Shown: one piece after another, positions 1 through 34,183 of the stretch
Position numbering within the stretch: position 1 is the first letter of the stretch
Layout of the letters: each line of letters begins with the position of its first letter
NCBI RefSeq assembly: GCF_018143015.1
Contig: NC_054756.1
Location: 13,610,402 to 13,674,401 of the forward strand
Direction of reading: 5' to 3'
Source of the DNA: Lytechinus variegatus
Lineage: Eukaryota > Echinodermata > Echinoidea > Temnopleuroida > Toxopneustidae
DNA: 64,000 bases
Program-made: the position numbers and the translations under genes
Notes under the pieces: generated by a model
Databases searched by the model: none
Seen by the model: only the letters and a program-made list of their open reading frames with translations
Told to the model about the DNA's origin: nothing

Positions 1-1305
1 TGCCTACTCATAAATCATTTTCATTTAGGGAAGTGCATCCTTTGCAACAAGTGGGCTTGTGTGGAAAGAGAAAATCAAAGAATAAGATCTAAGAAAGTTT
101 GAGAAAGTTGTGAGCATAGGAATATTGCAATCACTAATGCTATGGAGATCCTCCATTGGCAGTGAGAAAAAGATGTGTAATGTCACATGTGAATAACTTT
201 CCCTGTGGGGGACTATAATATACCCCTAAATTGTCCTCTTTTTTTGCTCATTCTTATCCAAAATGACTGTATTCTTGAAAATTCTGTATGACGTGCCCTC
301 CGAGAGGTATTTTAAGTGAATATATGTAATGCCGAAGTTGTTTACATGTGACATGACACATCTTTGTCGCATTTCCGACCGGAGGATCTACATTATGATA
401 ACTTTGTTATTATTTATTCAAATTTTCTTAAATTTTTGTTGATATTTTTCTTTGATTTTTCTGTTTTACTGGTTCTCAAGTGAGTAAAAACATGCCCGGG
501 GTACATGCACATGAAGCCTTCAGCATATTACTCAATTTTTGCAAACTTTATCATGGCTTAATGTTTGTATTTGTGCTAATTCATGAGTCGTGACCTCCCC
601 CCCCCCCCGTCTCCTACGCGGGGCTAGCTGGAGCTATATTATGGCGTGCGTATGAGCTTTAGGTGCCCCTTGCTTGCAGCAGCATGCTGCATGCATGCGC
701 TATTGCATGCATGATAAACAATCACTGCGCGCACGGAACACTTCATTTATGACAACATAATAAAACGGGAAAGAAGTCTCTGCAATAGAAATACGTTCCA
801 GTTATTTTCAGTAAAAATTGTGATCTATTCATTTGTATTTATCCAATTTTTCCTTTCCATCGCGAGCAAGGAATAGTGTTTCCGATCGTGGAGACCATAT
901 TTCTGCTTATAGTGTGAATTTTCAGCAATAATCATGAGAACAAGGTGGGGATCGCCGAATGCTCCGGCATGTTGTTTGTGTTTGGACGTGAGAACAGGAT
1001 CTATCCTCATCGGATTATGGCATTTGGTAAGTCGTATTTCATAATAATATCCCATAGGCCTACATGAAATCACAAAAGATTATTTAGGTACGGTCGATCA
1101 ATTTTACTTTGGTGTAAAAACTTTGCTATACTATCTTGAAATTGGATGCGGGTGGTGGGGGGGGGGGGGGGGGGGGACAGGAGGCTGATATCGTGCCATG
1201 GCATGGCTGGGCATGATGAGCGCATGCAATAATTGGCCACACAATTCTAATGGGGATGCGCACAGTTTCGTGTATCATGGTCATTTGAATTGCACAGGAA
1301 TAAAT

Positions 1306-5779: not shown

Positions 5780-8700
5780 GTAAGTTTGACAAATGATGAT
5801 GATGGTGATGACAGTGATGATGATGTTGATGATGCTGATGATGCCGGGGGGGGGGGTGCAGTCAATTATATTGCTGTACACACGTGTGACCAAAAAAAAT
5901 GCGTTTAAAGGGGTGTTTTTTCAGTTATGGACATGGGCCGTGCACTCGTTAAGGTTACCTCAAAACTGATTCCTTTTTTTTTAAAGGGGTAGTTTTGAAA
6001 GACTGGTCAATGGTCAATCGCAGGGTCAAACATATTTAGGGTATGTTTTTTTCCAAATGTTTTTTAAGACTAGCCAAACATGTTTAGGGTATTTTTTTCC
6101 CCCAAGCTTTTTCCAAGGGGTCATATTCTGGCAAAAACTTGTTCAGGGGCCAAAATGTGTAAATTAAACCTGCGAAAAACTTGTTTAGGGGGTTCTTTTG
6201 CACACAGAGAAAAACTCGTTTTTAATAGCCCATGTTTGGAAATAATTTAGCCACGTGTGTGTACAGCAATACATTTGACTGCCTCCCCCTCCCCCCCCCC
6301 CCCCCCCCCCCCCCCCGGGTGATGTTGATAATAATGATGATGATGATGAATTGATCGTTTAAAGCTGTATGATCAATGGACTGAATGATAATAGACTGAC
6401 TGTGGTGCATGAGACTTTATTAGTCAAATTGGTAATTGGACTACTGGTTAACGGTTATTACCAAGATCTGTGGATAATTGAGCAGGTGGTATTTTGTCCA
6501 AATTGATGTACATGTAAACAATGAAGCCGTTTATTGGAACAGGTTCTATCCTCAATTCAATACCTGACTGCTATTTCATTAAAAGTACATGTATATGTTG
6601 CACGGATCAGTGAGTGGTGGTGTTCACAGCTTAACATCTTCAAACGCTCCCCTGCCCCTATGAAAGGAAAGGAAATCTTGATGGTGGCTTAGTGCAATTT
6701 AAGAGATAGAGAATGGCCTCTGTTACATGCACAGAATAACCAAATTTAATACCAATGTCGGATTGCATTCAACACCAAAAGCTATTGAAATTTGTAATGA
6801 ACAGGGCTCACTGCTCAGTATTTCGAATTTGCAATCAATTGCTATTAAAATACAATTTAGCAATCATTACGGATATCAACTAATGGCCAATCAAGATCAT
6901 TGGTGCATGCTTTATTTTATTCAAACACTATTAAGAGTCGATCAGTATTGCCCTTGCATAAATGGAATCCATTGCAAACCTGCAACCAGATACTCTCATT
7001 CATTCCATATTACAACATGTTTTGTTTACAGTAAAGTTCTGTACATGCACACCATCTGTGCAGTAATTTTACAGGGATAAATGAAAAATCAATTTTTTGA
7101 AGTGCAGACTTAGAGGTGTTCGTTAATCATTGCTATGATTTCTTTTTTCTTAGGGATCTACTGAGCTAAAAAAAGCAAATAAAGTTTTGGTTTGCTGTAT
7201 ATTATCGTTCATTCGTTCTAAATTTTTTGCGTTGTTGGCTTAATGTTTGATGAACATCAATGGTATATGTAGGGGAAGGCGGGGTAAGTTGAGCATAGGG
7301 GCAAGTTGAGCCACCAGCCCCAGGCCAATAATGAATGAGTCAGACATTGTGGTGGTGTCATGTATTGATGACCCATAGCATAACCCCTAACCCCACCACA
7401 TTGTTTTCAACTTTGAAACAAAAAGTAGTTTTTTAGAGGGAAAAATATGAATTTCAGCCAAAAAAGTAAAAAAGAGTGTGAAATAGATAAGTGCTTTATA
7501 AATACACACGTCTTTAAATATAATAAAGACATATAACAACATTATTAATCAAGGTATGGATCCTCATTCTTGTCATAGTCTTTTATATGATGGATGCATA
7601 ATAAATGTGTGAATACAAAATTATCGCACTAAGTTCGGACTGGGGTAAGTTGAGCCAAACAGCATGGGGCAAGTTGAGCCATGGTAATTCCTATGGTAAT
7701 GTATCTTAAAAAACAAACCATAAAAATTGATTGAAATGCTTGCTGAAAGGAGCAAATTTACATGACTGCTCTTTTCCTTTTAAAGGATGTTAGTATTTAT
7801 AGAGAATTAGCAAGTGAAAAAACTATAAACAAAAATTGACATTATTAATCTCCCCTCATACATTTTGTACATAGTTTTTGTGGCTCAACTTACCCCAGAA
7901 GGTGGCTCAAACTTACCCCATATATGGGGCAAGTTGAGCCATTTGACATCGTTTTTTTCAAAGGTCACGGTGACTTTCAGTGTGGGGATAGAAAGTTATA
8001 TATAGGTGGAAAATATTTCAGAAGAATTAAATTTCAAGGCAAGGTACTTATTTCGACAAGATTATTAATCATATCAATTCTAACATGCAAAAAGCAAAAA
8101 CTGTCACAACTTACCCCGCCTTCCCCTACACATATTCAAATCATGCCAAATTTATTTCAGTCATTGAAATATTAATTGTGCAGGGTATACAGGATTAGGC
8201 GGGGTCCACCCGCCAGTCATAAGGACCACTGGTCATAATACCCGCTAGTTATAAGGACCGCTAGTCATAATAGTCATAAGGGTCGCTATTCATAAGGGGC
8301 TTTGTTCATAGAGGTCGCAAGTCATAATCAACGATGGGGTTCGCCATTCATAATCAAACAAGAGGGTCGCTAGTCATAATAAAGGAAGAGGGTCGCCAGT
8401 CATAAGGAGGAAAAGGGTTCGTTGATCATAAGGGTCGCCATTCATAATAGTGGATGAGGGTCGCCAGTCATAATAGTAGAAGGGGTTCGCCAGTCATAAT
8501 GGTAGATGAGGGTCGCTATTCATAATAGTAGAAAGGGTTCGCCAATCATAATAATGGATGAGGGTCGCCAGTCATAATAGTAGAAGGGGTTCGCCAGTCA
8601 TAATGGTAGATGAGGGTCGTTAGTCATAATAGTAGATGGGGTTCGCCAGTCATAATAATGGATGAGGGTCGCCAGTCATAATATTAGAAGGGGTTCGCCA

Positions 8701-11700
8701 GTCATAATGGCAGATGAGGGTCGCTAGTTATAATAGTAGATGGGGTTCGCCAGTCATAATAATAGATGAGGGTCGCCAGTCATAATATTAGAAGGGGTTC
8801 GCCAGTCATAATGGCAGATGAGGGTCGCTAGTCATAACAGTAGATGGGGTTCGCCAGTCATAATGGTAGATGAGGGTCGCTATTCATAATAGTAGAAAGG
8901 GTTCGCCAATTATAATAATGGATGAGGGTTGCCAGTCATAATAGTAGAAGGGGTTCGCCAGTCATAATGGTAGAGGAGGGTCGCTATTCATAATAGTAGA
9001 AAGGGTTCGCCAATCATAATAATGGATGAGGGTCGCCAGTCATAATAGTAGAAGGGGTTCGCCAGTCATAATGGTAGATGAGGGTCGTTAGTCATAATAG
9101 TAGATGGGGTTCGCCAGTCATAATAATGGATGAGGGTCGCCAGTCATAATATTAGAAGGGGTTCGCCAGTCATAATGGCAGATGAGGGTCGCTAGTTATA
9201 ATAGTAGATGGGGTTCGCCAGTCATAATAATAGATGAGGGTCGCCAGTCATAATATTAGAAGGGGTTCGCCAGTCATAATGGCAGATGAGGGTCGCTAGT
9301 CATAACAGTAGATGGGGTTCGCCAGTCATAATGGTAGATGAGGGTCGCTATTCATAATAGTAGAAAGGGTTCGCCAATTATAATAATGGATGAGGGTCGC
9401 CAGTCATAATAGTACAAGGGGTTCGCCAGTCATAATGGTAGATGAGGGTCGTTAGTCATAATAGTAGATGGGGTTCGCCAGTCATAATAATGGATGAGGG
9501 TCGCCAGTCATAATACTAGAAGGGGTTCGCCAGTCATAATGGCAGATGAGGGTCGCTAGTCATAATAGTAGATGGGGTTCGCCAGTCATAATAATAGATG
9601 AGGGTCGCCAGTCATAATATTAGAAGGGGTTCGCCAGTCATAATGGCAGATGAGGGTCGCTAGTCATAATAGTAGATGGGGTTCGCCAGTCATAATAGTG
9701 GATGAGGGTCGCTATTCATAATAGTAGAAAGGGTTCGCTAGTCATAATAATGGATGAGGGTCGCCAGTCATAATATTAAAAGGGGTTCGCCAGTCATAAT
9801 GGCAGATGAGGGTCGCCAGTCATAATAGTAGAAGGGGTTCGCCAGTCATAATGGTTGATGAGGGTCGCTATTCATAATAGTAGAAAGGGTTCGCCAGTCA
9901 TAATAATGGATGAGGGTCGCCAGTCATAATAGTAGAAGGGGTTCGCCAGTCATAATGGTAGATGAGGGTCGTTAGTCATAATAGTAGATGGGGTTCGCCA
10001 GTCATAATAATGGATGAGGGTCGCCAGTCATAATATTAGAAGGGGTTCGCCAGTCATAATGGCAGATGAGGGTCGCTAGTCATAATAGTAGATGGGGTTC
10101 GCCAGTCATAATAATAGATGAGGGTCGCCAGTCATAATATTAGAAGGGGTTCGCCAGTCATAATGGCTGATGAGGGTCGCTAGTCGTAATAGTAGATGGG
10201 GTTCGCAAGTCATAATAATAGATGAGGGTCGCCAGTCATAATATTAGAAGGGGTTCGCCTGACATAATGGCAGATGAGGGTCGCTAGTCATAACAGTAGA
10301 TGGGGTTCGCCAGTCATAATAGTGGATGAGGGTCGCTGTTCATAATAGTAGAAAGGGTTCGCCAGTCATAATAATGGATGAGGGTCGCCAGTCATAATAG
10401 TAAAAGGGGTTCGCCAGTCATAATGGTAGATGAGGGTCGCTCGTCATAATAGTAGCTGGGGTTCGCCAGTCATAATGGTAGATGAGGGTCGCTATTCATA
10501 ATAGTAGAAAGGGTTCGCCAATCATAATAATGGATGAGGGTCGCCAGTCATAATAGTAGATGGGGTTCGCCAGTCATAATGGTAGATAAGGGTCGCTATT
10601 CATAATAGTAGAAAGGGTTCGCTAGTCATAATAATAGATGAGGGTCGCCAGTCATAATAGTTGAAGGGGTACGCCAGTCATAATGGTAGATGAGGGTCGC
10701 TATTCATAATAGTAGAAGGGGTTCGCCAGTCATAATAGTGGATGAGGGTCGCTATTCATAATAATAGAAAGGGTTCGCCAGTCATAATAATGGATGAGGG
10801 TCGCCAGTCATAATATTAGAAGGGGTTCGCCAGTCATAATGGCAGATGAGGGTCGGTAGTCATAATAGTAGAAGGGGTTCGCCAGTCATAATGGTAGATG
10901 AGGGTCGTTAGTCATAATAGTAGATGGGGTTCGCCAGTCATAATAATGGATGAGGGTCGCCAGTCATAATAGTAGAAGGGGTTCGCCAGTCATAATGGTA
11001 GATGAGGGTCGTTAGTCATAATAGTAGATGGGGTTCGCCAGTCATAATAATGGATGAGGGTCGCCAGTCATAATATTAGAAGGGGTTCGCCAGTCATAAT
11101 GGCAGATGAGGGTCGCTAGTCATAATAGTAGATGGGGTTCGCCAGTCATAATAATAGATGAGGGTCGCCAGTCATAATATTAGAAGGGGTTCGCCAGTCA
11201 TAATGGCAGATGAGGGTCGCTAGTCATAATAGTAGATGGGGTTCGCCAGTCATAATAGTGGATGAGGGTCGCTATTCTTAATAGTAGAAAGGGTTCGCCA
11301 GTCATAATAATGGATGAGGGTCGCCAGTCATAATATTAAAAGGGGTTCGCCAGTCATAATGGTAGAAGAGGGTCGCTAGTCATAATAGTAGATGGGGTTC
11401 GCCAGTCATAATGGTAGATAAGGGTCGCTATTCATAATAGTAGAAAGGGTTCGCTAGTCATAATAATAGATGAGGGTCGCCAGTCATAATAGTTGAAGGG
11501 GTACGCCAGTCATAATGGTAGATGAGGGTCGCTATTCATAATAATAGAAAGGGTTCGTCAGTCATAATAATGGATGAGGGTCGCCAGTCATAATAGTAGA
11601 AGGGGTTCGCCAGTCATAATGGTAGATGAGGGTCGCTAGTCATAATAGTAGATGGGGTTCGCCAGTCATAATGGTGGATAAGGGTCGCTATTCATAATAG

Positions 11701-14700
11701 TAGAAAGGGTTCGCCAGTCATAATAATGGTCGCCAGTCATAATAGGAGAAAGGGTTCGCCAGTCATAATGGTAGATGAGGGTCGCTAGTCATAATAGTAG
11801 ATGGGGTTCGCCAGTCATAATAATGGATGAGGGTCGCCAGTCATAATAGTACATTGTAAAAAATAAGGTGCTAATTTAGCGCTTACAGTGATTGTATAGT
11901 GATTGCACTGGGAGTGTTGGTTTTCTAGTTTAAATTTGAACTAGAAAATCAGCACTAGTAGTACAGTCACTATACAAGCACTGTAAGTGCTGAATTAGCA
12001 ATTAATTTTTACAGTGTAGTAGGGGTTTGCTAGTCATAATAGTAGATGAGGGTCGCAAGTCTTATTAGTAGAAGAGGGTCGCTAACCATGATAGTGGAAG
12101 GGGTTCGCCTGTCAGTAGAAGGGAACTTTGCTACATAATAGCTGAGGTGGGCGCAAAGCGTGAGAACACAAAAAAATGTGATTTTCAAGCCTAATATGTA
12201 TTATATTGTAGTTCAAAAAGGGTATTTAATTTCGAATAAGAGCACATTTTTATTTTGAAAAATGGGATTTTTTTTAAATCATAACCAGCAGGAGCTATTA
12301 AAAATGACACCCTTTAGAAAGATAAATTATCTCATGTTATTGACATTACTTTTGAAAAAAGAGCACATTTCATTTTGCCAAAAGGCTTTTTCCTTTTGAA
12401 AAAGGGCATTTTTTTTTACCTACGGCGATTTTTTTTTCATCATAACCAGCAGAAGTTGTTAGAAATGACACCCTCCCCTAAAAAAAAATCAAATTATCTT
12501 TAGGCGAAAAGGTGTAGATTGTGAATGATTCCAATAACAAGGAAATCTTCTTTGAATATATGCATTTAAGATAGTGTTGACCTAAACCTGTACCACAGTA
12601 TTTTCTAAAAGCCTTTTTTTTTAATAGAGGTTTTTTTTTAAGAAAAATGTCTTTTCTATCTATATTATACTTTTTTTTAGTTGATGTTGAATATGATATG
12701 AGCATGAAATTATTCCTTCATATTATATATTTCATTTTTTGAAAAGGAAAAAAAACAAATATTCATTGTTTACAGGACACTCATTTTGTAAAGGATTTGG
12801 AAGAAAGCATCTTAAAGGAGTGGGAGGAAGGTTTTTTTCTCATATATATCATCTAATGCAATGCTATATTATTTGATAAAAACATACAACTTGTTATTAA
12901 GAGAGTAAAATGCGACACTGATGGAAAGTATGTTCCTTATTTCATTGATTTCATTGTATGGGCAAAATGACCCTAAATTTTTTAGATGTATTGAAAGTAT
13001 CTTATTGGACTATGATGATCCTCATAAAATCCTATGTGGTGATTGGAACCTGGTCCAAAGTTTTGAGTCAGTGAGTTAATTTAGTTGATCCATGGCGTCA
13101 GTTAAATCCAAATCCAAAATGTTATACTTGGAGACAGCCCACACCATTGAAGCAAAGTAGAAAACATTATTTTTTTGATATCTTCAGATATTATTTCTTT
13201 GGTTAGAAAATGTGATATTTTTATTTATTTATTTTTTTTTTTTTAAACAAGTGCACACCTAGTTACCAATAATGCATACAGCATTTCCATTTATTTGAAA
13301 GCAGGATAAAAGAGCATTGTAGATTAAATGCCTTGCTCACGGGCATAGCTGCTGCGGCCGGGGATCGAACCCCGGACTTTCCATGTATAGCCAGGCGCCT
13401 TAGACCACTCGGCCACGGCACCTCCACGATATCCTAAATATTGATTTAGGATATCGTACCGATCACACAATGATCAGTTTAGAGATTGTGTTAGCTAAAT
13501 GTTTTTACAGTATCTTGATATTGTCTTCATGGTAAAGCTTTTGAAACTGTTAGAAAAGAGAAACTCAGATTTATTATTGATTATCAGTTGTTTTTTTATA
13601 CACTGTTCATAGGCGGATCTAGGGGGTCCGAGGGGCCCACCCCCCCCCCCCCCATTGGCGGAGCAAAAATATTAAAAGGGGGGAAGAAAGAAAGAAAGAA
13701 AGAGAGAAAAAAAAGAAAAAGAAGGGAAAAGAGAGGAGAAAAAAAGAAGGGGAAACACAAGAAGAGGAAGACGAGTGAATAAAATAAGATGAGGGGAAGC
13801 CTAGGAAAATGATTTTTAAAATCCTTAATGTCACTATAAAAAAAAATCTCTTGCGCTTCTCGCTTGCATTGCATGTAAGGTGATTTACATATCAATATGG
13901 AGATTGAAATATTAAAATTTGAAGTCAACATAGAAAACATATTTCAGCTCAGAAATCGTACTTTCATTATTTTGTTTGATTTACAAAGTGATTTTTAAAA
14001 AGTGCTCAGCAAAACTTTTTGTTTTATGGTCTGAATTTTTAAAAATTTCGGCTCGCGATTATGTAAAATGAGTAAAATGAAAGGATCAATTTAAAAAAAG
14101 TTTCATCAAAATCGGTTATGAAATAAGCAAGTTATGGGAGTTTGAAAACTCTTGTTGTACTTTCTAAGGGCATCCTTAAATTGGCAAACGTGCTTCAATA
14201 TGGCTGATTTTGTGGACAACTCTCCATTTGTTTTGTACACAAATTTTCAGATTTTCCTCATTATCTTTCAAGTTGCATCTTGCCTCCTTCTGAGCACAAC
14301 ATATGTCATGGGAAAATATAATCCACACAATATATGTCAAGGTCAGGAGGTGATAATGTGAAATATGTAAAATAAAGGGGAAAATCTGAAAATATGTGTA
14401 CAAAACAAATGGAGAGTTGTCCACAAAATCAGCCATTCAGTCAATTCTGCTCGCGCTTCACGTTCGTAGTAGTTATTTGCATGCACATCTTTTTCAGAAA
14501 AAATACAAAGGATTTCCAAAAAATTAGCTCGCGCTTCGCGCTCACATTATATAAATAAAGATGATATTGTCTATAAATGTTCATTCATAGGAATAAAGCT
14601 AAGAAGTGAGTATTAGGATTACCCCTTCAAAGAAACCAAAAATTATCTTCGAGTGGCCGATCGGGGAAAATATGTCTGAAAAAAATTCCGCCCCCCCCCC

Positions 14701-17700
14701 TATTCAACATTTGTTGAATTGATTCATGATAATGGTACAGTATTGCAAGAACAAACAGACATCTTAAGAGAAATTGGGTCATATAATGAACAGTTATATA
14801 AATATAAATATCATGGAAATAGTGATGCTGAAGAACTTTTTTTTATCTTATTAGAGAAGAGAGTTTCCATAGTCTTACAGAGGAAAACGATTCTTCTTTA
14901 GGAGAAATATCTTACAGTGAAGTTGATTTTGCATTAAAAAAATATGAAAAATAATAAGCCTCCTGGACGAGATGGATTTACAACTGATTTTTTTAAAGCA
15001 TTCTTTCAGGACTTAGGTATATTCTTGGTACGAAGTATGAATTTTGCTTATATTTCTGGAAAATTATCCATCTCACAAACAATAATGGCTTGATAACATT
15101 AATTCCTTAAGGTGACAAAGTAAGACATTTCATCAAAAATTGGAGATCAGTTTCATTGTTGAATGTTGTTTGTAAACTGTTGTAAAGTTGTATTGCTCAC
15201 AGACTTTAAAAAGTATTACCATATAATTATTCATGTTAATCAATCAGGATTCTTGTCTGGACGATTTATTGGTGAAAATAGGAAAATTTTGTATTATTTA
15301 ATTGTGTATATGGAGAAGAAACATATTCCTGATTTCTGATTTTTCATGATTTTTTGTTTAAAACGCTTTCCATTTTTAAATTTGGCAAATCTTTCATGAC
15401 ATGAATAAAAATACTTGATCAGAATGCATTTTCTAGTGTTATAGTCAATGGGCAAATGACATTAAGATTTGTTTTTGTTAAGCGCTAGAAGTCTTGGGTT
15501 GTTAATTCGAAATTAACACTCTGCCAAACGAATTTATGTTGGCTTAAAAGAATACAAAGTTCTTTAAAATGCGGATGACACAGTTTATTTCTCAATGGTG
15601 CAGCTGCCAGTTTCTGTAATGTACTAAATATTTTGGATTCATTTGCTAAATGTAGTGGGTTGAAGGTCAATACGCAAAATCTACCATATACCTCAGCTAC
15701 CATTTTGACTGGCGAACCCCTTCTACTATTATGAAAATCGACCCCCATCTACTATTATGACTGGCGAACCCTTTCTTCTATTATGACTGGCGACCCCAAT
15801 CCATTATTATGATTGGCGAACCCTTTCTACTATTATGAATAGCGACCCTCATCTACCATTATGACTGGCGAACCCCTTCTACTGTTGACTGGCGAACCCC
15901 TTTTAGTATTATGACTGGTGACCCTCATCCATTATTATGACTGGCGAACCCTTTCTGCTATTATGAATAGCGACCCTCATCTACCATTATGACTGGCGAA
16001 CCCCTTCTACTTTTATGAATAGCGACCCTAATCTACCATTATGACTGGCGAACCCCTTCTACTTTTATGACGGGCGAACCCCTTTTAGTATTTTGACTGG
16101 CGACCCTCATCCATTTTTATGACTGGCGAACCCATTCTCCTATTATGACCGGCGACCCTCATTCATTATTATGACTTCCGAACCCTTTCTACTATTATTA
16201 ATAGCGACTCTCATCTACCATTATGACTGGCGAACCCCTTTTATTATTATGACTGGCGACCCTGATCTATTATTATGACTGGCGAACCCTTTCTACTATT
16301 ATGAATAGCGACCCTCATCTACCATTATGACTGGCGAACCCCTTCTACTGTTATGACTGGCGAACCCCTTTTAGTATTATGACTGGTGACCCTCATCCAT
16401 TATTATGACTGGCGAACCCTTTCTGCTATTATAAATAGCGACAGTCATCTACCATTATGACTGGCGAACCCCTTCTACTTTTATGAATAGCGACCTTAAT
16501 CTACCATTATGACTGGCGAACCCCTTCTACTTTTATGACGGGCGAACCCCTTTTAGTATTTTGACTGGCGACCCTCATCCATTATTATGACTGGCGACCC
16601 TCATCCATTATTATGACTGGCGAACCCTTTCTACTATTATGAATAGCGACCCCTATCTACCATTATGACTTGCGAACCCCTTCTACCATTATGACTGGCG
16701 AACCCCTTCTACTTTTATGACTGGCGAACCCTTTCTACTATTATGAATAGCGACCCCCATCTACCATTATGACTGGCGAACCCCTTCTACTTTTATGACG
16801 GGCGAACCCCTTTTAGTATTTTGACTGGCGACCCTCATCCATTATTATGACTGGCGACCCTCATCCATTATTATGACTGGCGAACCCTTTCTACTATTAT
16901 GAATAGCGACCCCTATCTACCATTATGACTTGCGAACCCCTTCTACTTTTATGACTGGCGAACCCTTTCTACTATTATGAATAGCGACCCCCATCTACCA
17001 TTATGACTTGCGAACCCCTTCTACCATTATGACTGGCGAACCCCTTCTACTTTTATGACTGGCGAACCCTTTTTAGTATTATGACTGGCGACCCTCATCC
17101 ATTATTATGACTGGCGAACCCTTTCTCCTATTATGACTGGCGACCCTCATTCCTTATTATGACTGGCGAACCCTTTCTACTATTATGAATAGCGACCCTC
17201 ATCTACCATTATGACTGGCGAACCCCTTCTACTATTATGAATAGCGACCCTCATCTACCATTATGACTGGCGAACCCCTTCTACTATTATGAATAGCGAC
17301 CCTCATCTACCATTATGACTTGCGAACCCCTTCTACTATTATGACTGGCGAACCCCTTTTAGTATTATAACTGGCGACCCTCATCCATTATTATGACTGG
17401 CGAACCCTTTCTCCTATTATGACTGGCGACCCTCATCCATTATTATGACTGGCGACCCTCATTCCTTATTATGACTGGCGAACCCTTTCTACTATTATGA
17501 ATAGCGACCCTCATCTACCATTATGACTGGCGAACCCCTTCTACTATTATGAATAGCGACCCTCATCTACCATTATGACTGGCGAACCCCTTCTACTATT
17601 ATGAATAGCGACCCTCATCTACCATTATGACTGGCGAACCCCTTCTACTTTTATGTCTGGCGAACCCCTTTTAGTATTATGACTGGCGACCCTCATCCAT

Positions 17701-20700
17701 TATTATGACTGGCGAACCCTTTCTCCTATTATGACTGGCGACCCTCATCCATTATTATGACTGGCGAACCCTTTCTACTATTATGAATAGCGACCCTCAT
17801 CAACCATTATGACTTGCGAACCCCTTCTACTATTATGACTAGCGAACCCCTTTTAGTATTATGACTGGCGACCCTCATCCATTATTATGACTGGCGAACC
17901 CTTTCTCCTATTATGACTGGCGACCCTCATCCATTATTATGACTGGCGACCCTCATCCATTATTATGACTGGCGAACCCTTTCTACTATTATGAATAGCG
18001 ACCCCCATCTACCATTATGACTTGCGAACCCCTTCTACCATTATGACTGGCGAACCCCTTCTACTTTTATGACTGGCGAACCCTTTTTAGTATTATGACT
18101 GGCGACCCTCATCCATTATTATGACTGGCGAACCCTTTCTCCTATTATGACTGGCGACCCTCATTCCTTATTATGACTGGCGAACCCTTTCTACTATTAT
18201 GAATAGCGACCCTCATCTACCATTATGACTGGCGAACCCCTTCTACTATTATGAATAGCGACCCTCATCTACCATTATGACTGGCGAACCCCTTCTACTA
18301 TTATGAATAGCGACCCTCATCTACCATTATGACTTGCGAACCCCTTCTACTATTATGACTGGCAAACCCCTTTTAGTATTATAACTGGCGACCCTCATCC
18401 ATTATTATGACTGGCGAACCCTTTCTCCTATTATGACTGGCGACCCTCATCCATTATTATGACTGGCGACCCTCATTCCTTATTATGACTGGCGAACCCT
18501 TTCTACTATTATGAATAGCGACCCTCATCTACCATTATGACTGGCGAACCCCTTCTACTATTATGAATAGCGACCCTCATCTACCATTATGACTGGCGAA
18601 CCCTTTCTACTATTATGAATAGCAACCCTCATCTACCATTATGACTGGCGAACCCCTTCTACTATTATGAATGGCGACCCTCATCTACCATTATGACTGG
18701 CGAACCCCTTCTACTTTTATGTCTGGCGAACCCCTTTTAGTATTATGACTGGCGACCCTCATCCATTATTATGACTGGCGAACCCTTTCTCCTATTATGA
18801 CTGGCGACCCTCATCCATTATTATGACTGGCGAACCCTTTCTACTATTATGAATAGCGACCCTCATCTACCATTATGACTTGCGAACCCCTTCTACTATT
18901 ATGACTAGCGAACCCCTTTTAGTATTATGACTGGCGACCCTCATCCATTATTATGACTGGCGAACCCTTTCTCCTATTATGACTGGCGACCCTCATCCAT
19001 TATTATGACTGGCGACCCTCATCCATTATTATGACTGGCGAACCCTTTCTACTATTATGAATAGCGACCCCCATCTACCATTATGACTTGCGAACCCCTT
19101 CTACCATTATGACTGGCGAACCCCTTCTACTTTTATGACTGGCGAACCCTTTTTAGTATTATGACTGGCGACCCTCATCCATTATTATGACTGGCGAACC
19201 CTTTCTCCTATTATGACTGGCGACCCTCATTCCTTATTATGACTGGCGAACCCTTTCTACTATTATGAATAGCGACCCTCATCTACCATTATGACTGGCG
19301 AACCCCTTCTACTATTATGAATAGCGACCCTCATCTACCATTATGACTGGCGAACCCCTTCTACTATTATGAATAGCGACCCTCATCTACCATTATGACT
19401 TGCGAACCCCTTCTACTATTATGACTGGCGAACCCCTTCTACTATTATGAATAGCGACTCTCATCTACCATTATGACTGGCGAACCCCTTTTACTATTAT
19501 GACTGGCGACCCTGATCTATTATTATGACTGGCGAACCCTTTCTACTATTATGAATAGCGACCCTCATCTACCATTATGACTGGCGAACCCCTTCTACTA
19601 TTATGAATAGCGACCCTCATCTACCATTATGACTGGCGAACCCCTTCTACTATTATGAATAGCGACCCTCATCTACCATTATGACTGGCGAACCCCTTCT
19701 ACTATTATGAATAGCGACCCTCATCTACCATTATGACTGGCGAACCCCTTCTACTTTTATGATTGGCGAACCCCTTTTAGTATTATGACTGGCGACCCTC
19801 ATCCATTATTATGACTGGCGAACCCTTTCTCCTATTATGACTGGCGACCCTCATCCGTTATTATGACTGGCGACCCTCATCCATTATTATGACTGACGAA
19901 CCCTTTCTCCTATTATGACTGGCGACCCTCATCTACCATTATGACTGGCGAACCCCTTCTACTATTATGAATAGCGACCCTCATCTACCATTATGACTGG
20001 CGAACCCCTTCTACTATTATGAATAGCGACCCTCATCTACCATTATGACTGGCGAACCCCTTCTACTTTTATGACTGGCGAACCCCTTTTATTATTATGA
20101 CTGGCGACCCTCATCCATTATTATGACTGGCGACCCTCATCCATTATTATGACTGGCGAACCCTTTCTACTATTATGAATAGCGACCCTCATCTACCATT
20201 ATGACTTGCGAACCCCTTCTACAATTATGACTGGCGAACCCCTTTTATTATTATGACTGGCGACCCTCATGTATTATTATGACTGACGAACCCCTTCTAC
20301 TATTATGACTGGCGACCCTCATCACCTATTATGACTGGCGACCCTTATGATTAATGTAGCCTCTTCCTTTTTATGACTAGCGACCCTTATCTAGTATTAT
20401 GAATACCGACCCTCGTTGTTGATTATGACTAGCGATCCTTATGATCAATTACCCTTATGGTCCATTATGAATAGCGACCCTTATCTTGCATTATGAAAAT
20501 CGGACCTTATGACCCATGGTCCTTATGACCTTATGACTAGCGACCCCTTTTGCCTATTATGACTAGCGAGCTTTTGGGTATAGGATTTTACACGTTATGA
20601 CTAGCGGTCCTTATGACCAGTCAGTATTATGACTTATGGTCCTTATGACTGACGGGCTTATCCCGATTAGGCGACCCTAAAAAATGTTAAACCTGTATCT

Positions 20701-23700
20701 GGGGAATCTTTATTGGATACATGTAATGGAGAGCAAATGAAAAAGAAATTACCAAATCAAAAATGTATTATTAGGCAAAGCCAATATCCTGTATGGTTTT
20801 ATCATGTTTTACAATACATGTACATGTACTTTATTTTCACTTTTATTTTCTCCAGCTGATTACTGCGTTGGTCTTGTGATTGTGTTCTGTTTCCTGCTAA
20901 TCACCACCATGATGATGAAGGGGATCATTCAGTATCGCTCCGGGTACATCCTACCATTCTTCTGTCTTCAGCTCTTTGATTTCTTCATCACGTTCCTAAC
21001 CTGCATCGGTGTCATGTCCTACTATCCTGACTTTGACTATGAAGACAGCCCTAAATTCCCCTACAACCAGGTACAATGCAATGACGACAAGCAATTACAT
21101 GTACATGTATGCAGTAGAAATTATCAATATTCTGCCATAGTTAGAATAATGATTTTCTAAATAATCTTCAATATTGTTTGCAACAGATCTTTGGGCAACT
21201 CTAGAAAGAATGATTGCCCCAAAGCATGCATTTTGGGGGAAATTTAGGGCAGATCTGTACTGTCATGAGGGCAAAGTTGCCCATCGTGCCCTCGTGTATT
21301 TCCTATGCTGCAGTTGTGTAAGAAATATAAATTTTTAAATTTTCATTCTGATTTTGGGACCTTAACATTGACTTTAAATCCCCTTTTTGATCTTATGTGT
21401 CAGGCCAAGGAACTTCTGTCTTTATGATGTTAGAAAGTGCAAACATGATATGCTATAAGTACATGATGCGAAACAAGCTATTCTTTCTATCACCATCTGT
21501 TACACACTATTGATTTTTAGTCACATTTGGACAATTTGTCATTTTTGTTCATTTTTTAGTAACTCGTATTGCTGGTTTGATCTCATTCAAGTGATTAAAG
21601 GTCAAGTCCTCAGAAAAATGTTGATTTGAATCAATAGAGAAAAATCAGACAAGCACAATGATGAAAATTTCATCAAAATCGGATGTAAAATAAAAAAGTT
21701 ATGACATTTCAAAGTTTCGCTTATTTTTAACAAAATAGTTATATGAATCAGCCAGTTACATCCAATGAGAGAGTCGATGATGTCACTCACTATTTCTTTT
21801 GTTTTTTATTGTTTGAATTATACAATATTTCAATTTTTACGAATTTGATGATTAGGACCTCCATGCCTGAAGCACAAAATGTTAAAATAATGGAATTCCA
21901 CATGTTCAGGGAGGAATGAAACTTCTTTTTACATGACAATGATGAGAAAATAAAAATATTTCATATACCGGTGATAAAATACAAAAGAAATAGTGACTGA
22001 GGGATGTCATCAGATCCTCATTTGCATACCGACCAAGATGTACATATAATGAACAGGTAACTGTTTTGTGAAATGAAGCGAAACTTTAAAATGCCATAAC
22101 TTTCTTATTTTACATTCCAATCTTATTTTACATCCAACTTTCAGTGTTATGCTTGTTGAATTTTTCTTTTTATTTAACTCAAGTTTGCGTTGGGGTGAAC
22201 TATGCATTCTGAGTTATAATTTGTTATATTGCCATTTAACCTTTGACCCTAGGAATTCATGCACTGGAAGGAGAACCTACCTGTTAGCAAGTATGACATT
22301 GAATCACCATGGTTTACATTCATCGCTCTTGCAATTTTCCTCGCAATCATGTTATTTAAGGTAAGTGTTCTATTAACTGCCAGACAGTAGGTCCTACATG
22401 TAAAGGGATAGAAAGATAGGTTGGTTGATAGATAAGACAGTTATGTAAACACAATATTTTTCATAACTGTCTTTCAGATTTTTGATCCCTTAGCAAAGCA
22501 GAAAACATTCTTAAGTTATTATATTGATTGGGAAAAAAAAAGTCATAGATAGATAGATACATGTAGGTAGATGTAGGTTCATGAAGGTGTACATGTACAG
22601 TGTATGCACATTTTCTTTGTGAATAATGTAGGACAATGTATACTTGTGTGATTTACACTGTAATTGTAGCATTGAATTTATACAGAGATATATGTAAGGC
22701 AATAGCTTCTTGGAAATATTACCTTCGCAGATGTTATCATATCCTTCACTACGTCAAAGGTTTTGTAACTGGAGAGAAACGTGCATAGTTTACACTAATT
22801 CTTAGACTTGGTATGTGTTCACTGTTTCATCATACATGTACATTGTACTTAAAACCCATTCATGCCAGATGTATAGTTTACCAGTTGAAGAAAAGATTTG
22901 AGTGTTTACATGCATTTGGAATGATAGATGATGACAGTGTACTAGTACATGTAAATTACATTATTGACCTTTATGAAAGTTTGAATCAGGCTTGAAATAT
23001 ATACATACAACACTGTAGTACTACCCCGATGGGGTCACTCACCAGCAGAGGGGGACGCGTATGACCGTTACCATAAATGCAAGTAACCCCCTATTGCAGT
23101 CAATTTCAAGGACATTTCGTGAAATTTACCCCCCTATTTTCACGCAAAACAAGGACAAAATTGCGGTAAAATGGTACCTTGAAACACCCCTAATTATAAG
23201 ATTGTAAGGACACTTTTGCCCATTTCGCAAACTTACCCCTATTTACCATATTTCAAGGACAGGGCATTTATACCCTTTCCTCATTAGAGGAAATTGCAAC
23301 ACAGGCGTCAGAGTGCTCAGTCCTTAAAGATAACCAAGAGCCATGTCATACTGATACAATAATCCAAAAGAACTTTATTTTTCTTGAAAAATAAGAAAAG
23401 TAGAATTCTTTGTAAAAATAAATGTAGAGTTGTCCACATAAAGATACAGAGCATGATGAGCGCGCCCTCTGCGGCTGGTGGCTCGGCGACGGATTTTACT
23501 TCCCGTGATCGTACTCCCCCTTTTCCTGACCCCTATTTCTATCAGATCGAGGACGGTAAGCACCCCTATTTTCACTACTTCGAGGAGTGTTCTGTCCACG
23601 GACGTTCCGTGAAATTGACCCCTTTTCCCGCAATTTTGGTAACGGTCATGCGGTCCCCAAGTCATATTGAGTAACCCCTGCGGGAGTACTACAGATACCT

Positions 23701-26700
23701 CTCAGCCCTCAATTTTGTAACATCCATGCATGCAAGAGCCTACATGTACATGTGAATTGTGATACTGATATCAGTTTGAATACAATAATGTACATGTACA
23801 TGTAGAATTTGAGTGACAGGATGTTGATAATTTAATTATCAGATCCTTTATACCCTTTTTAGACAGGCTAAAATTTCCTTAACCCCGTACTATTGGTGGG
23901 GCTAAATGGCAATTTAGCCCCACCTATAGTACGGGGTTAAGCTTAGCCCACTTTCGTTTTACACAGCGTTTTTGCAAAGTGGGCTAACCCCACCTATAGT
24001 ACGGGATTATTTGGCCCTGCAAAAAAGCAGGGTTATCCCACCAATTGCGGTGCTAAGAGCAATAGTACGGGGTTAAGATCGCATGTGTAAAACGAAAGTG
24101 GGCTAAGCTTAACCCCGTACTATAGGTGGGGCTAAATGGCAATTTGGCCCCACCTATAGTACGGGGTTAAGGAAATTGTAGCGTGTGTAAAACGTGTACG
24201 AGTGAAGCACTTGTACTACGAATGATCGACAAAAACCACTAGTCCGGGGTTAGCGAGTTTCGTGTGTAAAAAGCAAGCATTCCTTATCCGGGGTTAGCAA
24301 TAACAATTTGGCATGTGTGAAAAGGAAAAAAAATAGTACGGGGTTAAGGATAGTACGGGGTTAGCGATAGTCCGGGTTAAGAAAATCCTGTGTAAAAAGG
24401 GCAATAGACAGCTTGTGCTTATGAATGGGAGGTACATGTATGGAATTCATAAACTGCTTGCAATGTCTGAATATCACAGATTTGCGAAGTCGTATTTGAA
24501 ATTAGGAACTTTGCCAACTTTGTTGTAGAATAATACTGTTTACACTATTCATTTTCATTTTTGGAATGATGTCTATTGTCATGCAGTGATTTCTTTTTGT
24601 TTCAGTTCTTTCTCTTTCTTGGTATTGCATTTTATTTGCCTTTGATTCCTATTTCCCCATGTATAGTACAGTGTACTAGTATTTAAGTTCTCTTTCTTTT
24701 TTTGTTCGATTCTTGGTTTCTGTCTCCTTATATTTTTCTTCATCCCCTCTTACCAACTTCCATATATCCTTATATCCTCTTCCTTACATTGTAGTACTGA
24801 TTTCTCTCAATATTGTTACATATATGAATAATTGTAGAAGAATTGTGAAAGCAATTACATTCATCTATTAGTTATTTCCCTTTAAGGATAGCCAAGAATT
24901 GTAAAGAACATTCAAGAATGTCTTTTTATTATGCAGGCCTTGCCTATTTAAAGGCCAAGGAGTTGTATTGTTATTTCTGAATAGAGATTAGGAACAATAG
25001 GCTTAGCTATGTTATTGACACTCTTGATTCAAGGAGGTCATTCAAGATTCAAGAGTGTTCTGGATTTTGACTGCTCCTGAAAGAAGAAAGTTTTTTTAAA
25101 GAAAATGCTAGAACCTTCCTTAATAGTGAGTTCTAGAAGAATAGCTGCAAACTATATAAAGCTGGTGGATTCTTCAAGATTATCATCACATCATATTAGA
25201 TCACTTGACCACACCATCACATCATATGAGAGCAGGAGATCACATCACATCATATGAGATCACTTCACCAGATCAGATCAGAGCAGTTTATGCATCAATG
25301 AACTGTTTGCAGTTATTTTGAGAAATTATCAGTTCTCATCGAGATCATCAACATCATCAACCTGTTCAATGAACACGCTTCAACCCATGGATTACTGAAA
25401 TTGACTGTTAATCATCATCAACATCGTCTTCACGGACATTTCAACTCGTAGCAGTGACTCTTATTATTCATCGGACTTCAACATCAGTTTCATCATCGCC
25501 ATCATTGTGAATTTTCGCCAGTCAACTGGGATTTTTATCATTTGGATTATTACTTGGATATAGCATCATCACTTCGGGATTTTACATCGGACACTTCAAG
25601 AGATTTATGTAAGATCATTATTTGTTTTATTTTATGTATAATTATTTCCTGTAATAAAAAAAGGAAAATTCAAACTTTATATTTAAAAATCTTCTTTGTT
25701 ATTTGTTGCAGTATCGTAACAAATAATTTTGGGGGCTTGTCCGGGAAACGAAAACCAAATTTGTACAAGCCAAGGCAATTTGAAACGAAAACCAAATTTG
25801 TACAAGCCAATTTGAAACTAAAAAAAAACCAGTTTTTCAGGAAGCGAAAGCCAATTGTGAGACGAAAGTCAGTTTGAAACAAAAACCAATTTGAATTGAA
25901 AACATTTTGGAAATTTTTGGAAAGTTCTAGAATATACTGTACTGTGTTATTACTTGGTTGTATTTGTGTATATTCACTATGGCTACATTTGATGTTGAAG
26001 AATTTCTTGCAATGACAGAATTGTCATATGATCATTTGAAGTCACTGAAGAAGGATGATTTGATAACAGTTTGTGATCGTTTGGGTGTATCTCTAGCCCC
26101 AGGTTTAAAGAAGGCAGAGATAATTGACTTGTTAGCTAGTCACATGAAGCTTACAGAGGAGTCTGAAACTTCTATCAATATTTCAGACGATGCTCAGATA
26201 CAACTGGCAAACATTGAATTGGAAAAGGAAAGAATCAAAGAAAACCTTGAGAAGGAAAGAATCAAAGAAAACCTTCAAAAGGAAAGAATCAGAGAAAACA
26301 TTGAAATGGAGAAAATGAGATTGGAGTACCAGTTAAAGTTGAAAGAAATGGAGTTAGCTCATGCAAATACTAATACTAACTCTGTTAAAGATAAATCTCC
26401 CCAAGGCTTTGATGTGGCGAAAAATATTCGCCTTGTGCCAAAATTTGATGAAGAGGGAGTTGATACATATTTTGTGTCATTTGAAAAAGTGGCCAAGAGA
26501 CTAAATTGGCCCGAGGAATACTGGACTCTTCTCCTCCAAAGCGTTTTTGTTGGAAAGGCTGCAAAAGTCTATTCTTCACTCTCTGAAACGCAATCATGTG
26601 ACTATGCTACAGTAAAAGAAACAATTCTCAATGCATATGAGTTGGTACCAGAAGCGTACAGACATAAATTTAGGAACATGCAAAGACAAACAGGCCAGAC

Positions 26701-29700
26701 GTATGTTGAATTTGCTAGGGAACAAGAAATGATGTTCGATAAGTGGTACAGATCACTGAAAGTTGACAAAGATTTTGTTCACCTTAGGGAAGTTGTCCTC
26801 CTAGAAGAATTCAAAAAGAGTCTTCCTTTTGGCATTAAATCTCACTTAGATGACCATAGAGTTACTGAAGTCAGTAAAGCAGCCATAGTAGCTGATGAAT
26901 TTGAGGTCACACATAAGGGTAGTGGAGATAGGCCTCCTTTCAAGAATTATTGGAAAAAGAAAGGTAAAGGGTCATTTGAATCCCACAATAAACCTAGTGA
27001 GGGAAAATATGCAAGCAAGGACAAAGACGCTAATAAGGATCAGGCTAGTGGGGGCACAGAATCAACCAAACGGTCTGAGAGTCGTAGTTCCAAAATTTGT
27101 ACTCATTGTCATAAATCGGGACATTTGAAAGAATCATGTTGGAAATTGGTTGGAATGCCAACCAAAACTAAGAAAGACATGGGTTTTGTCAAGCAAACAA
27201 GTGTTCCCTCGATGGAGTTTGTTCCATCAGAGCCCAATCAAGATGTTGAGAGTGTTTCTCTGGTATTTGCTGATAAAGTTAAACAGGTTGATGAAACTTT
27301 TAGAAGTTTTTTTGCATGATGGTGAAGTATCCCCTTGTTCGACTGGTGCTGCTGGTAGGTCAGTGGTGATCCTTAGGGATACAGGGGCTGCACAGTCCCT
27401 GATGGTGCCAGGTGATTCGGCTCTTCCTCCGGAGAGTTCAGAGAATGCCAACGTCTTAGTTCAAGGTATTGGCCCAAATTTCATGTCGGTTCCTTTGCAT
27501 AAGGTCGACTTAAAGTGTGACCTAGTTAGTGGTCCTGTGACTGTTGGTGTCGTTCCAGAATTACCCATGAAAGGTGTTGATTTCTTGTTAGGTAACGACT
27601 TGGCTGGAGATAAAGTTGTTGCATCTCCAGTGGTTTCGGAAAAGCCCGTTGAGGTAGCTGAAACTGAATTGTTGCAGGAAGATTTTCCAGGGATTTTCCC
27701 GGATTGTGTTGTTACTAGGTCTCAGACTCGTAGAGCTGAAAAGGATGATGCGGAATCTGCTGATGTAGAGGAGAGTACTGATGTCTGGTTAGCTGAAACC
27801 TTTTTCAAGGATTTGAATGGGGATAGTGTTGAAGGCTCTGTTGCTAACAATGATAGTTTGTTTAGTAAATCCTCCCTTGTACAGGCACAACAGGCAGACC
27901 CAGAATTAAAAAGCTTGTCACAAAAAGCATGTTCTGAGGCTGAGGCTGATAAGGTTCCTGAGTGCTTTTATGTCAAAGATGACATTTTGATGAGGAAATG
28001 GAGACCTCCCCGGAGACCAGCTGATGAAGATTGGTGTATAATTCACCAGGTTGTAGTTCCTCCTTGTTACCGCACAGATATTCTGAAAATGGCTCATGAG
28101 TTACCTATGGCAGGTCATGTCGGTATTCGGAAGACAGAAGATAGAATTATGAGGCATTTCTATTGGCCTAAGATGCACAAAGATGTTGTGCATTTCTGTA
28201 AGACATGTCACACATGTCAGATTATTGGTAAGGCACAGCCTTCTATCAAGCCTGCTCCATTGATACCCATTCCTGCATTTGATGAACCTTTTACTAGGGT
28301 TCTTGTTGATTGTGTCGGACCCTTACCCAGAACGAGGTCGGGTCACAGATTTCTCCTGACAATTATGGACTTGTCTACACGGTTTCCAGAGGCGATACAT
28401 GTACCTTTGAGAAGTATCACTGCAAAGACAGTGGTGCAGGCGTTAGTGCAGTTTTTCACTAGGTACGGTCTGCCAAAGGAAATTCAATCTGATCAAGGGT
28501 CAAATTTCATGTCAGGAATATTTCAGCAAGTTATGAAGGAGTTGGGAATAAAGCAGATTAAGTCTTCTGCTTATCACCCACAGTCCCAAGGAGCGTTAGA
28601 ACGCTATCATCAGACTTTGAAGACCATGATTAGGGCTTATTGTGAAGACTATCCCGATGACTGGGATAAAGGGATCTCATTCCTACTGTTTGCAACCAGG
28701 GATTCCCCGAATGAGTCCACAGGTTTCAGTCCATTTGAATTGGTCTATGGTCATGAGGTTAGGGGTCCTCTAAAGCTTATCAAAGAGAGGTTTATGGTTC
28801 AGGATGATTTATTTATTTATTTATTTATTTCACATCTTTATCCAGAGTAGCCTGTTCAGCTTCATACAAACAAATATGCAAAATTACACAATATATACAA
28901 TTAAAATATTCATTAAAAATCGCTGGTCTTCCACAGGGCTCTGCATAAATACCAAAAAACATATATTTCATAACATAAAGAAAACATAAGTAAAGAAAAT
29001 ATATATACACATCAGAATAAGATTTGGAATGAGAAAGTAAAAGGACATGGTAAGATAGGAAGAAAGAGATAGAGAGAGAGAAAGGGCCAGAGGTAAACAG
29101 AGAGAGAGTTCAGGAGCAAAGGTAATTATGTAATATTTGACCAGTCAGGCATATTCTTAAGAATAGCATAAGATAGCATAGGATAAAAACCAAATCGAGG
29201 AAGTGATCATACATTTCTAATAAAACACAATACATGTAGCATGTGCTGTAAGTATGAGAAGTGATGTCATATTCTTATCTGTGATTATATCATTTTAGGA
29301 GTAATTTAAAGGAGGCTGGCCGCTTTTCTAGTCGCGTAGCGTCCGGAAGGTTGTTCCACTTTGTGGCACCTGAATAAAGGAAAGAATTTTGATAAAAAGA
29401 GGTGGAACATTTTGGGAGTCTCAAAATCAGTTTATTTGATCGTCTAGAGTTCCTCATTAGTACGGTGTCTAGAAGTACAATTCTACGTGAAAGTATAGGT
29501 GGGGCAAGTTCATGAATTATTTTAAACATTGTGCAGCAGGCAGATTTCCAAAAAAGTTTGTCCAATGTTGGCCAAGATAATTTATTAAATACTTCATTGG
29601 ACGGGGTTTCCCAAGTTAAGTGTGAAATTAAGTATGCTGCCCTTTTATGTAGGCGATTAAGGATATCGTAATTGACATCACTTCTCCCTGTCCACACATT

Positions 29701-32700: not shown

Positions 32701-34183
32701 AGAGATTTATGTAAGATCATTATTTGTTTTATTTTATGTATAATTATTTCCTGTAATAAAAAAAGGAAAATTCAAACTTTATATTTAAAAATCTTCTTTG
32801 TTATTTGTTGCAGTATCGTAACAATATTTTATGCCCCCATGTTATCTCTCTCTTTCTTGTTTTATCTATTTGATTCTTTTATAATCTGATCGCTCTGTCT
32901 CCCTCTTCTGTTTCCTTTCTATTAATCCCTGCCCCTTCGTACCCCTGTCTTTCTATTCAACCTTCCTACAGTGTAAAGTCTGTTATCTACCACCATGCTC
33001 TGCCTCTAAATGTACACATGTGCCCCCTCTTTCCTTCTTTTATCCTCTGTTTCCTTTCCATGTCTTTCTGTTCAATCATTCTAAATGTACATGTATCCTC
33101 CCCTTCTGTCTCCCCCTCTTTCATTCTTTTTTCCAAGGTGTTGACCAACATTTGCCACTCTCCACCAGTTGTAGTAAAATGGGTACCTGGTACATGTAGG
33201 AATAAATCATTCAATGCTTGAGTACCTGGGGGCCACTTTACAAAGCTGTTCGTAACATATGAGTAACTTTAGGAACGACTGGTGAACCTTTTACACGTGC
33301 TTAACCATCGCCAATGAATGTACCATTTGCCACTAGAAAGGATCACCAGTCATTCTTAAAGTTGCTCTTAACTTACAAAAAGCTTTATGAAACACACACT
33401 AGGTTGGTGTTTCATATTAAGCTGTTCGTAAAATACGCATGACTGGTGATCCTCTCTTGTGCTATGGGACATCCCTATGTAATTGGTATACATGTACATG
33501 GTTGACCTATTACATGTTCCAGTCGTGCGTAACTTTACGTAACTTTATGAAACACCCACCTGATCCTGGTAGCCATATAACATGGGGTAATTGCAAGCAG
33601 CATTCAAATATTGTATTAAGTTCGTTATTAATGATTTATTGTTATTATTGTCTCCCACTCTGTAGTTCTACTGCATTGCCTGTATCTGGGCCTGCTACAA
33701 ACACACCGCCAGTGTGGAGCTGAGAGAGATCGAGCAATGTCCTGACACAGAGGTAAATATCCTGCAAACATTTGAATTGCTTGTTCTTGCTAAAGGCTAA
33801 AGTACCTATGTAACTTCTGAAGGTTTCCATGGCAAAGAAGAATAGTGTAGTAGGTTTCACAGTAGACCATGGACATGTATCTTTCTTGGGCAAAATTTCA
33901 GAGATTGGGTAGTCCTTTTTATGACCAACATTTACCTAAGATACATGGTGTAGGTACCGTGAAACCTACTACAATAAAGTACAGTACCTAATTGAACAAA
34001 TTCATTTCCAACTTGTACAGTGTACAGTACAGAGGAGGGGGTAGATGAATACATGTAGATTATAGGAAGAATAGCTGAAGGAAGTGGATGGGGATAGGAG
34101 AAAGATTTGATTAACAGATCAACTAGATATATGGATATTATGTAGGAGAAGTAACAGTGGTAGTAGTAGAAGTAGTAGTAGTA

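Follow-up and report, generated by a model that had tools for sequence, protein, structure and literature searches.

A 12.5-kb foldback element with satellite-like arms in the sea urchin Lytechinus variegatus, probably one of about 170 recent non-autonomous copies

The DNA analysed here, hereafter the window, is a stretch of 64,000 nucleotides of Lytechinus variegatus (NC_054756.1, positions 13,610,402 to 13,674,401; C17:13610402-13674401 in our contig labels) that contains two inverted arrays of one 26-bp unit, at about 8.3-12.1 kb and 15.7-20.6 kb. The question raised by this locus is whether the arrays and the DNA between them arrived as one mobile unit, and if so, what kind of enzyme could have moved it. 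Our answer, to which we assign a probability of about 0.9, is that they form a non-autonomous foldback DNA transposon, one of about 170 recent copies by our estimate, presumably mobilised in trans.

The window copy spans 8201-20664 (12,464 bp, tips included and target-site duplication excluded), and its parts, together with the duplicated target site, are the following:

8193..8200, plus strand: left copy of the target-site duplication, 8 bp, GATTAGGC
8201..8270, plus strand: left tip, GGGGTCCACCCGCCAGTCATAAGGACC..., starting a 16-bp-spaced repeat
8271..12138, plus strand: left arm, a mixed 16/26-bp zone leading into a 26-bp array of near-strictly alternating A/B dimers (52 bp)
11852..12016, no strand: palindromic repeat within the left arm, resembling a miniature inverted-repeat transposable element (MITE), with TA on both sides (11850-11851 and 12017-12018)
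12139..12147, plus strand: inner edge of the left arm, TAGCTGAGG
12148..15690, no strand: loop (middle segment), without recognisable transposase
12731..15677, plus strand: decayed fragment of a non-LTR (long terminal repeat) retrotransposon, broken by stops and frameshifts, with parts of the endonuclease and of the reverse transcriptase
14062..14067, no strand: site of about 2.1 kb of extra DNA in the sister copies C3_38.09 and C12_5.67, from displayed alignments
15691..15699, minus strand: inner edge of the right arm, CCTCAGCTA
15700..20594, minus strand: right arm, a 26-bp array (A/B, with AA and BB breaks) leading into a mixed 16/26-bp zone
20595..20664, minus strand: right tip, GGGATAAGCCCGTCAGTCATAAGGACC... 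as read on the minus strand
20665..20672, plus strand: right copy of the target-site duplication, 8 bp

The motif TAGCTGAGG is the inward end of both arms, with one exact match per arm. Aligned to each other, the two tips agree in 57 of 69 positions; the single 1-bp gap by inspection vanishes when the left end is placed at 8201. The alignment scores 86, whereas the best of 1,000 simple shuffles reaches 16. Hairpins at the tips were considered as a feature of the element and dropped, as the right tip folds better than 200 of 200 shuffles (z -2.9) but the left tip folds no better than its shuffles (z -0.17). GC skew (9001-20000) is about +0.35 in the left arm and about -0.33 in the right arm, the G-rich strand reading inward from each tip.

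The 9-bp sequence GATTAGGCG has two matches in the window, starting at 8193 and 20665, and none on the other strand. A chance 9-mer match at zero offset between random flank positions was obtained in 35 of 1,996,211 draws, and in a looser test (at least an 8-mer, within 3 bases of both edges) in 409 of 299,421 draws; these draws and the duplications at other copies rule out a chance match. The exact length of the duplication follows from the family: in all 30 copies with both flanks read (out of 33 paired copies) the base before GGGTCC is G, whereas the matching right-side base varies by copy. Thus the left end is GGGG, the duplication is 8 bp (GATTAGGC), and the ninth matching G of the window copy is a coincidence. 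A preliminary description of this DNA had already noted the inverted arrays, the matching tips and the flanking direct repeat, all of which are present in the sequence; its foldback element stands, but its span of 8193..20673 gives way to 8201-20664, its tips beginning GGG to a left tip GGGGTCC, and its 9-bp duplication to one of 8 bp. It had also proposed examining other copies for flanking duplications, and a short exact duplication is indeed present in 27 of the 30 (8 bp in 19, 9 bp in 6 and 7 bp in 2), while C11:1.57M, a paired copy outside the 30, has a 9-bp duplication. Two of the three copies lacking a duplication, both on C9, agree in the 14 flanking bases on either side and probably represent a single duplicated locus. 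C9:25572650-25588321 and C9:25632147-25648365 are inverted element copies 44 kb apart with outer flanks that match over the bases read and no duplication, which is probably a segmental inverted duplication that carries the element.

Across the genome (869.6 Mb in 33 contigs), an exact 27-base tip pattern has 335 matches and a reversed-pattern control has none, so that the search for further tip copies suggested in the preliminary description was amply rewarded. The first 100 listed tips (contigs C1-C3 and part of C4), on which the pairing counts are based, comprise 48 left-type tips, among them one that has a single-base variant, 48 right-type tips and 4 of a right-type variant that occurs 9 times genome-wide. 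Eighty of them form 40 inverted pairs, each with one left and one right tip, spaced 8,085-25,714 bp apart (median 13.6 kb). Likewise, among the best 40 left tips of the scored searches, 33 have a right-tip partner, at a distance of 10,369-22,204 bp. The two tip searches scored the best 40 of 1,885 and of 560 candidates, and since tips were thus selected by score, we do not claim that they are more conserved than the loops. Halving the 335 exact tips gives an estimate of about 170 recent copies, which at the median length of 13.6 kb would amount to about 2.3 Mb, or 0.26% of the genome.

Some tips mark unusual members. A 56-bp remnant (L081; C3:66227525, minus strand) consists of a right-type tip immediately abutting a left-type one with one base changed, between similar flanks (GGAAATAT / GGAAAAATAT), and is apparently an element collapsed to its two tips. 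Behind another right-type tip (L082; C3:65421249, minus strand), an inverted array starts after about 110 bp and reaches to about 1.3 kb, with no intact left tip within the fetched stretch; this is possibly a nearly loop-less small member. Two variant right-type tips (L079, C1:274002; L080, C1:48709036) carry diverged shorter arrays (21 and 30 anchors), beyond which the DNA has little or no match to the main loop, and we read them as older or different members.

Ten complete copies from other loci were fetched and compared with the window copy. All ten share the tips and nine share the loop; these nine keep its left edge, and C1:60.48M keeps only its right end. Pairwise substitutions among the loops of the nine sisters and the window copy range from 0.16 to 1.99%. 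The closest relative, C15:20.16M, differs from the window copy by 0.2% in the loop, and the two right arms, compared over 4,979 bp, show 6 mismatches and a single 26-bp indel. It lies on another contig, however, and its duplication is different (GTCTAAAG versus GATTAGGC). The existence of such a near-identical sister at another site, flanked by a duplication of its own, provides direct evidence for the movement of an element of about 12-14 kb as a unit, as the preliminary description had supposed.

An unoccupied site was found for one sister copy, C12:5.67M, which sits near the edge of a dispersed repeat of which the window happens to hold a copy without the element:

33242..33405, minus strand: unoccupied paralogue of the repeat hit by the sister C12_5.67, with one GTTTCATA across the junction

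The alignment is gapless across the junction position and identical in 129 of 169 columns; left of the duplication it comprises 12 aligned bases, 9 of them identical. It is a paralogous and not an allelic empty site, with a short left side. The empty-site check proposed earlier for the window allele has therefore yielded a continuous site for a sister copy, and not for the window allele itself. Local comparison of ten other junctions with 361 kb of sequence revealed no further unoccupied site, the other match flagged as spanning being the right flank of C2:61.66M itself, a copy without a duplication.

The arms are tandem arrays that turn over. Of the intervals between anchors, 128 of 140 on the left and 178 of 190 on the right measure exactly 26 bp; the first three at either tip measure 16 bp. 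Judged by eye, each 26-bp unit combines the 16-bp unit with a 10-bp linker, reading GTCATAA + TAGTAGATGA + GGGTCGCTA. The left array alternates almost strictly between A and B (a 52-bp dimer), and the right array has AA and BB breaks. Exact self-repeats of the window copy extend to at most 422 bp within the left arm, 561 bp within the right arm and 89 bp between arms, and 208-bp windows are closer to their own arm than to the other in 127 of 144 cases on the left and 168 of 184 on the right. Among copies, the left arm measures 2,239-5,109 bp (n=10) and the right arm 3,208-5,005 bp (n=11). The arm alignments of four close copy pairs contain 47 gaps, 28 of which have lengths that are exact multiples of 26 bp (38 gaps are longer than 4 bp, and all 28 are among them), gap placement being uncertain within such tandem repeats. 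The long within-arm repeats, the similarity within each arm and the 26-bp-multiple gaps suggest that each arm turns over separately, largely via in-register unequal exchange or slippage. The MITE-like hairpin is one insertion interrupting the left arm; both sister copies with displayed alignments (C3_38.09 and C12_5.67) have it in the same way, and also the same retrotransposon fragment in the loop. An 18-base piece of the arm repeat had no match when compared with viral contigs.

Does the loop encode the enzyme? The longest stop-to-stop frame in the window loop has 115 codons, and a Pfam scan of six masked loop frames returned a match at chance level only (QueF, E 0.77). A protein search identified pieces of a non-LTR retrotransposon endonuclease and reverse transcriptase (5 proteins at E<=0.001 among 2,580 candidates, the best at 3.5e-24), which end near the inner edge of the right arm. 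As a retrotransposition product should keep its 3' end, this fragment looks like captured or truncated DNA and not like a simple insertion. The same Pfam screen missed this decayed reverse transcriptase, and it is thus weak for decayed genes. The absence of a transposase from the loop, asserted in the preliminary description, accordingly holds for an intact gene, but a decayed or spliced one could escape these frame and Pfam screens. We rejected the loop as an autonomous element, on the basis of 11 loops without a frame longer than 153 codons (unspliced; for C1:60.48M the last 800 bp) and of a window loop without a Pfam domain.

The window loop measures 3,511 bp; among the nine sister loops, that of C2:44.36M has 3,582 bp, and the other eight exceed the window loop by 2.1-2.9 kb. 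The extra DNA of about 2.1 kb was considered as a transposase gene and rejected, having only short open frames in the copy read (C3_38.09). A 25.7-kb element on C1 (44.54 Mb; L084-L085, fetched as C1:44545500-44561500) has an array of at least 11.8 kb on one side, or of 16.7 kb if the remaining 4.9 kb out to the tip is array too. Its loop, about 3.5 kb long, showed no similarity to the main loop at E 1e-20. This unrelated loop indicates that the middles are variable. A tRNA-like short interspersed nuclear element (SINE), judged by eye, lies inside the window loop at 13242-13425 on the minus strand, with no flanking duplication; ARAGORN reports no tRNA in the window.

In structure the family belongs to the foldback class, with long inverted repeats of short tandem units around a variable middle, a target-site duplication in 27 of 30 copies, and dispersed copies represented by 335 exact tips. 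Drosophila FB elements have long, internally repetitive inverted repeats, with shorter units outside and longer units inside, and 9-bp duplications; the present arms resemble them in being long and internally repetitive, and the modal duplication of 8 bp is different. The TU elements of Strongylocentrotus purpuratus have long inverted repeats with a tandem-repeat outer domain (unit of about 15 bp), an 8-bp duplication and modular, heterogeneous middles. The family resembles them in its sea urchin host, tandem-repeat inverted ends, 8-bp duplication (19 of 30 copies) and variable middles, and differs in its units of 16 and 26 bp, the comparison being one of descriptions only. TU elements are probably the closest relatives, and the two could be of the same lineage.

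Tm1 of root-knot nematodes, a Mutator/Foldback group, has elements of 0.17-2.5 kb with 1-9 units per end, duplications of 8-10 bp, mostly 9, and a non-autonomous majority (PMC3169594). Shared with Tm1 (PMC3169594) are composite inverted repeats, asymmetric terminal motifs, variable tandem short units and a purine-rich motif at the inner end; in contrast to Tm1, the present elements are 8-26 kb long, with well over 100 units per arm in the window copy, and no transposase-bearing member was found here. Tetris of Drosophila virilis, with a 220-bp unit and terminal repeats of up to 1,735 bp, is likewise a foldback with tandem terminal repeats, a variable non-coding middle, a transposase that was not found, and duplications of 8-10 bp (PMC4079207). 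Rehavkus, listed from arthropods and annelids, has a 9-bp duplication and a PHD-finger transposase; a beetle copy carries a 164-bp satellite, and Rehavkus-1_TC is 9.5 kb (PMC6446971, PMC10218199). A satellite within the inverted termini is common to Rehavkus and the present family (PMC6446971, PMC10218199), but the modal duplication here is 8 bp, with 9 bp in 6 of 30 copies. The Pfam screen that missed the decayed reverse transcriptase detected no PHD-finger DDE transposase in the window loop, and no autonomous copy was found. Galileo, with a P-type enzyme, also has long internally repetitive inverted repeats, of up to 1.2 kb (PMC2775673). Arthropod Mutator-like elements (MULEs) have terminal repeats of up to 1,193 bp and a longest element of 9,972 bp (PMC13359780), and the Pack-MULEs of one survey are within 7 kb (PMC6431247). 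The arms measured here, at 2.2-5.1 kb and in one case at least 11.8 kb, compare with 1,735 bp in Tetris, 1.2 kb in Galileo and 1,193 bp in MULEs. A search of titles and abstract beginnings of open-licence papers returned no description of this foldback family. It thus appears to be a known kind of element whose size and recency are surprising and whose family is apparently undescribed within the literature searched, consistent with the very large and perhaps undescribed foldback member that the preliminary description had suspected.

How would such an element move? The tips, their pairing, the duplications, the shared loop, the turnover of the arms and the recent movement as a unit are seen in the sequences, and to these we add a proposed scheme of cut-and-paste by a Mutator-like enzyme that comes from elsewhere and recognises the tips. 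In this scheme the two asymmetric tips, one with GGGGTCCACCCG and one with GGGATAAGCCCG, both leading into 16-bp repeats of the GTCATAAGGACC type, would be recognised by a transposase acting in trans; it would cut at the outer ends, and the whole unit of 8-26 kb would insert with an 8-bp (7-9) staggered cut. The loop would be dead cargo copied along with the element, and each arm would gain or lose length independently, often in 26-bp steps, via unequal exchange or slippage. The variable duplication of 7-9 bp and the close structural likeness to Tm1 lead us to lean slightly towards a Mutator-like enzyme. Mutator duplications are 8-11 bp, mostly 9, compared with 8 bp in 19, 9 bp in 6 and 7 bp in 2 of the 30 copies here. 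Mutator-type transposase domains (PF10551) have 31 matches in the genome (60 candidates). None of these lies inside the 33 tip pairs or, as compared by eye, within the pairs among the tips listed, and the nearest known tip, in a list that omits one tip of some pairs, is 60 kb away. Short probes beside two of the places met no array, and as far as these comparisons reach the places were rejected as partners of the element.

Several observations weigh against our interpretation of the locus. No transposase was found in the loops of 11 copies, where the longest unspliced stop-to-stop frame is 153 codons; the loop of the 25.7-kb element on C1 has neither a frame of 120 codons nor a Pfam domain; and short probes beside two of the Mutator-type transposase places met no array. 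Three of the 30 copies have no duplication, and for 20 of the first 100 tips in the list an exact partner is missing within 30 kb. Tip identity in the tip searches is biased upward, being that of the best 40 of 1,885 and of 560 candidates. Nineteen of the 47 arm gaps are not multiples of 26 bp, 9 of these being of 4 bp or less. Private variants fall in the supposed core of the unit in 28 of 49 cases (p=0.56), giving no sign of core conservation; selection on this core was dropped as an idea, with the chi-square over positions also at p=0.31.

Two other explanations would deny that there is an element at all, and we regard either as having next to no chance. Satellite arrays can invert, and an inversion could in principle have joined two of them next to a chance 9-mer, but the tips, the inverted pairs and the duplications recur genome-wide, which refutes this reading. 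Long palindromes are prone to assembly errors, and foldback reads could produce a similar artefact; the arms, however, are not mirror copies, as their longest exact match is 89 bp and their array order and length differ, which makes an artefact unlikely, and for the family it is refuted by the ten complete copies at other loci that share the tips, nine of them with the loop. It is also improbable, if less so, that the element inserted with short arms, which then expanded to satellite size in place, the large units being immobile. Fast growth and loss are indeed evident from the exact 422- and 561-bp within-arm duplications and from the large arm-length differences between close relatives, but the window copy and C15:20.16M, which occupy separate sites and are flanked by different duplications, have a common 5-kb right arm (6 mismatches, one 26-bp indel), which contradicts this account for the window copy, and all 40 pairs among the first 100 listed tips are at least 8 kb long.

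The identity of the enzyme is a closer matter. Instead of a Mutator-like protein, a transposase from one of the other classes that make 8-bp duplications (hAT, P/Galileo-like or Merlin) is a serious candidate, to which we nevertheless give somewhat less than even odds. The modal duplication of 8 bp (19 of 30 copies) agrees with it, as does the existence of a P-superfamily foldback-like element, Galileo (PMC2775673), and the 8-bp sites show an excess of T at symmetrised position 2 (20 of 38, p=0.004, uncorrected for the choice of position). But a strictly 8-bp duplication is expected for hAT, whereas here the length varies from 7 to 9 bp, as it does in Mutator-type foldbacks such as Tm1 (8-10 bp; PMC3169594). 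Tetris, whose class is unresolved, also varies between 8 and 10 bp (PMC4079207), and Mutator-type transposase domains are present in this genome in the 31 matches described above.

In the window, the element sits between two plus-strand coding exons of a LAPTM4-like gene:

934-1026, plus strand: LAPTM4-like exon, donor GTAAGT, which we take to be such from the LAPTM4 N-terminus
20856-21070, plus strand: LAPTM4-like exon, Mtp family PF03821 (E 4.9e-7), with splice sites

The splice phases of these exons suggest a further exon between them, whose location was not found. Elsewhere in the window, a sperm-type histone H2B gene lies on the minus strand (coding 39102-39533) with a 3' stem-loop (RF00032) just downstream, gene and stem-loop together occupying 39023-39533; among the matches listed, and setting aside the window's own entry, the named full-length proteins most similar to its product are sea urchin sperm H2B proteins, with 94% identity to that of Psammechinus miliaris and 92% to those of Strongylocentrotus purpuratus and Parechinus angulosus. 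Positions 25184-32889 contain frames of a Gypsy-like LTR retrotransposon between repeated flanks (family assigned by eye), with an oppositely oriented reverse-transcriptase fragment inside.

Finally, we tentatively consider that size may itself be the rule in this family: giant non-autonomous foldbacks of 8-26 kb would move repeatedly and recently, the tips and satellite arms would be the mobile unit, and the loops would be exchangeable. If true, these elements would be larger than is usually reported for cut-and-paste elements without an enzyme of their own, and mobile satellite DNA would be a continuing process. As a young, high-copy family that brings several kb of satellite per arm to new sites, here within a gene, it links transposition directly to the origin and spread of satellite arrays. 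The related copies, estimated at about 170, with their independently changing arms would make the rate and mechanism of tandem-array growth measurable, and the family tests how large a DNA segment an animal transposase can move.

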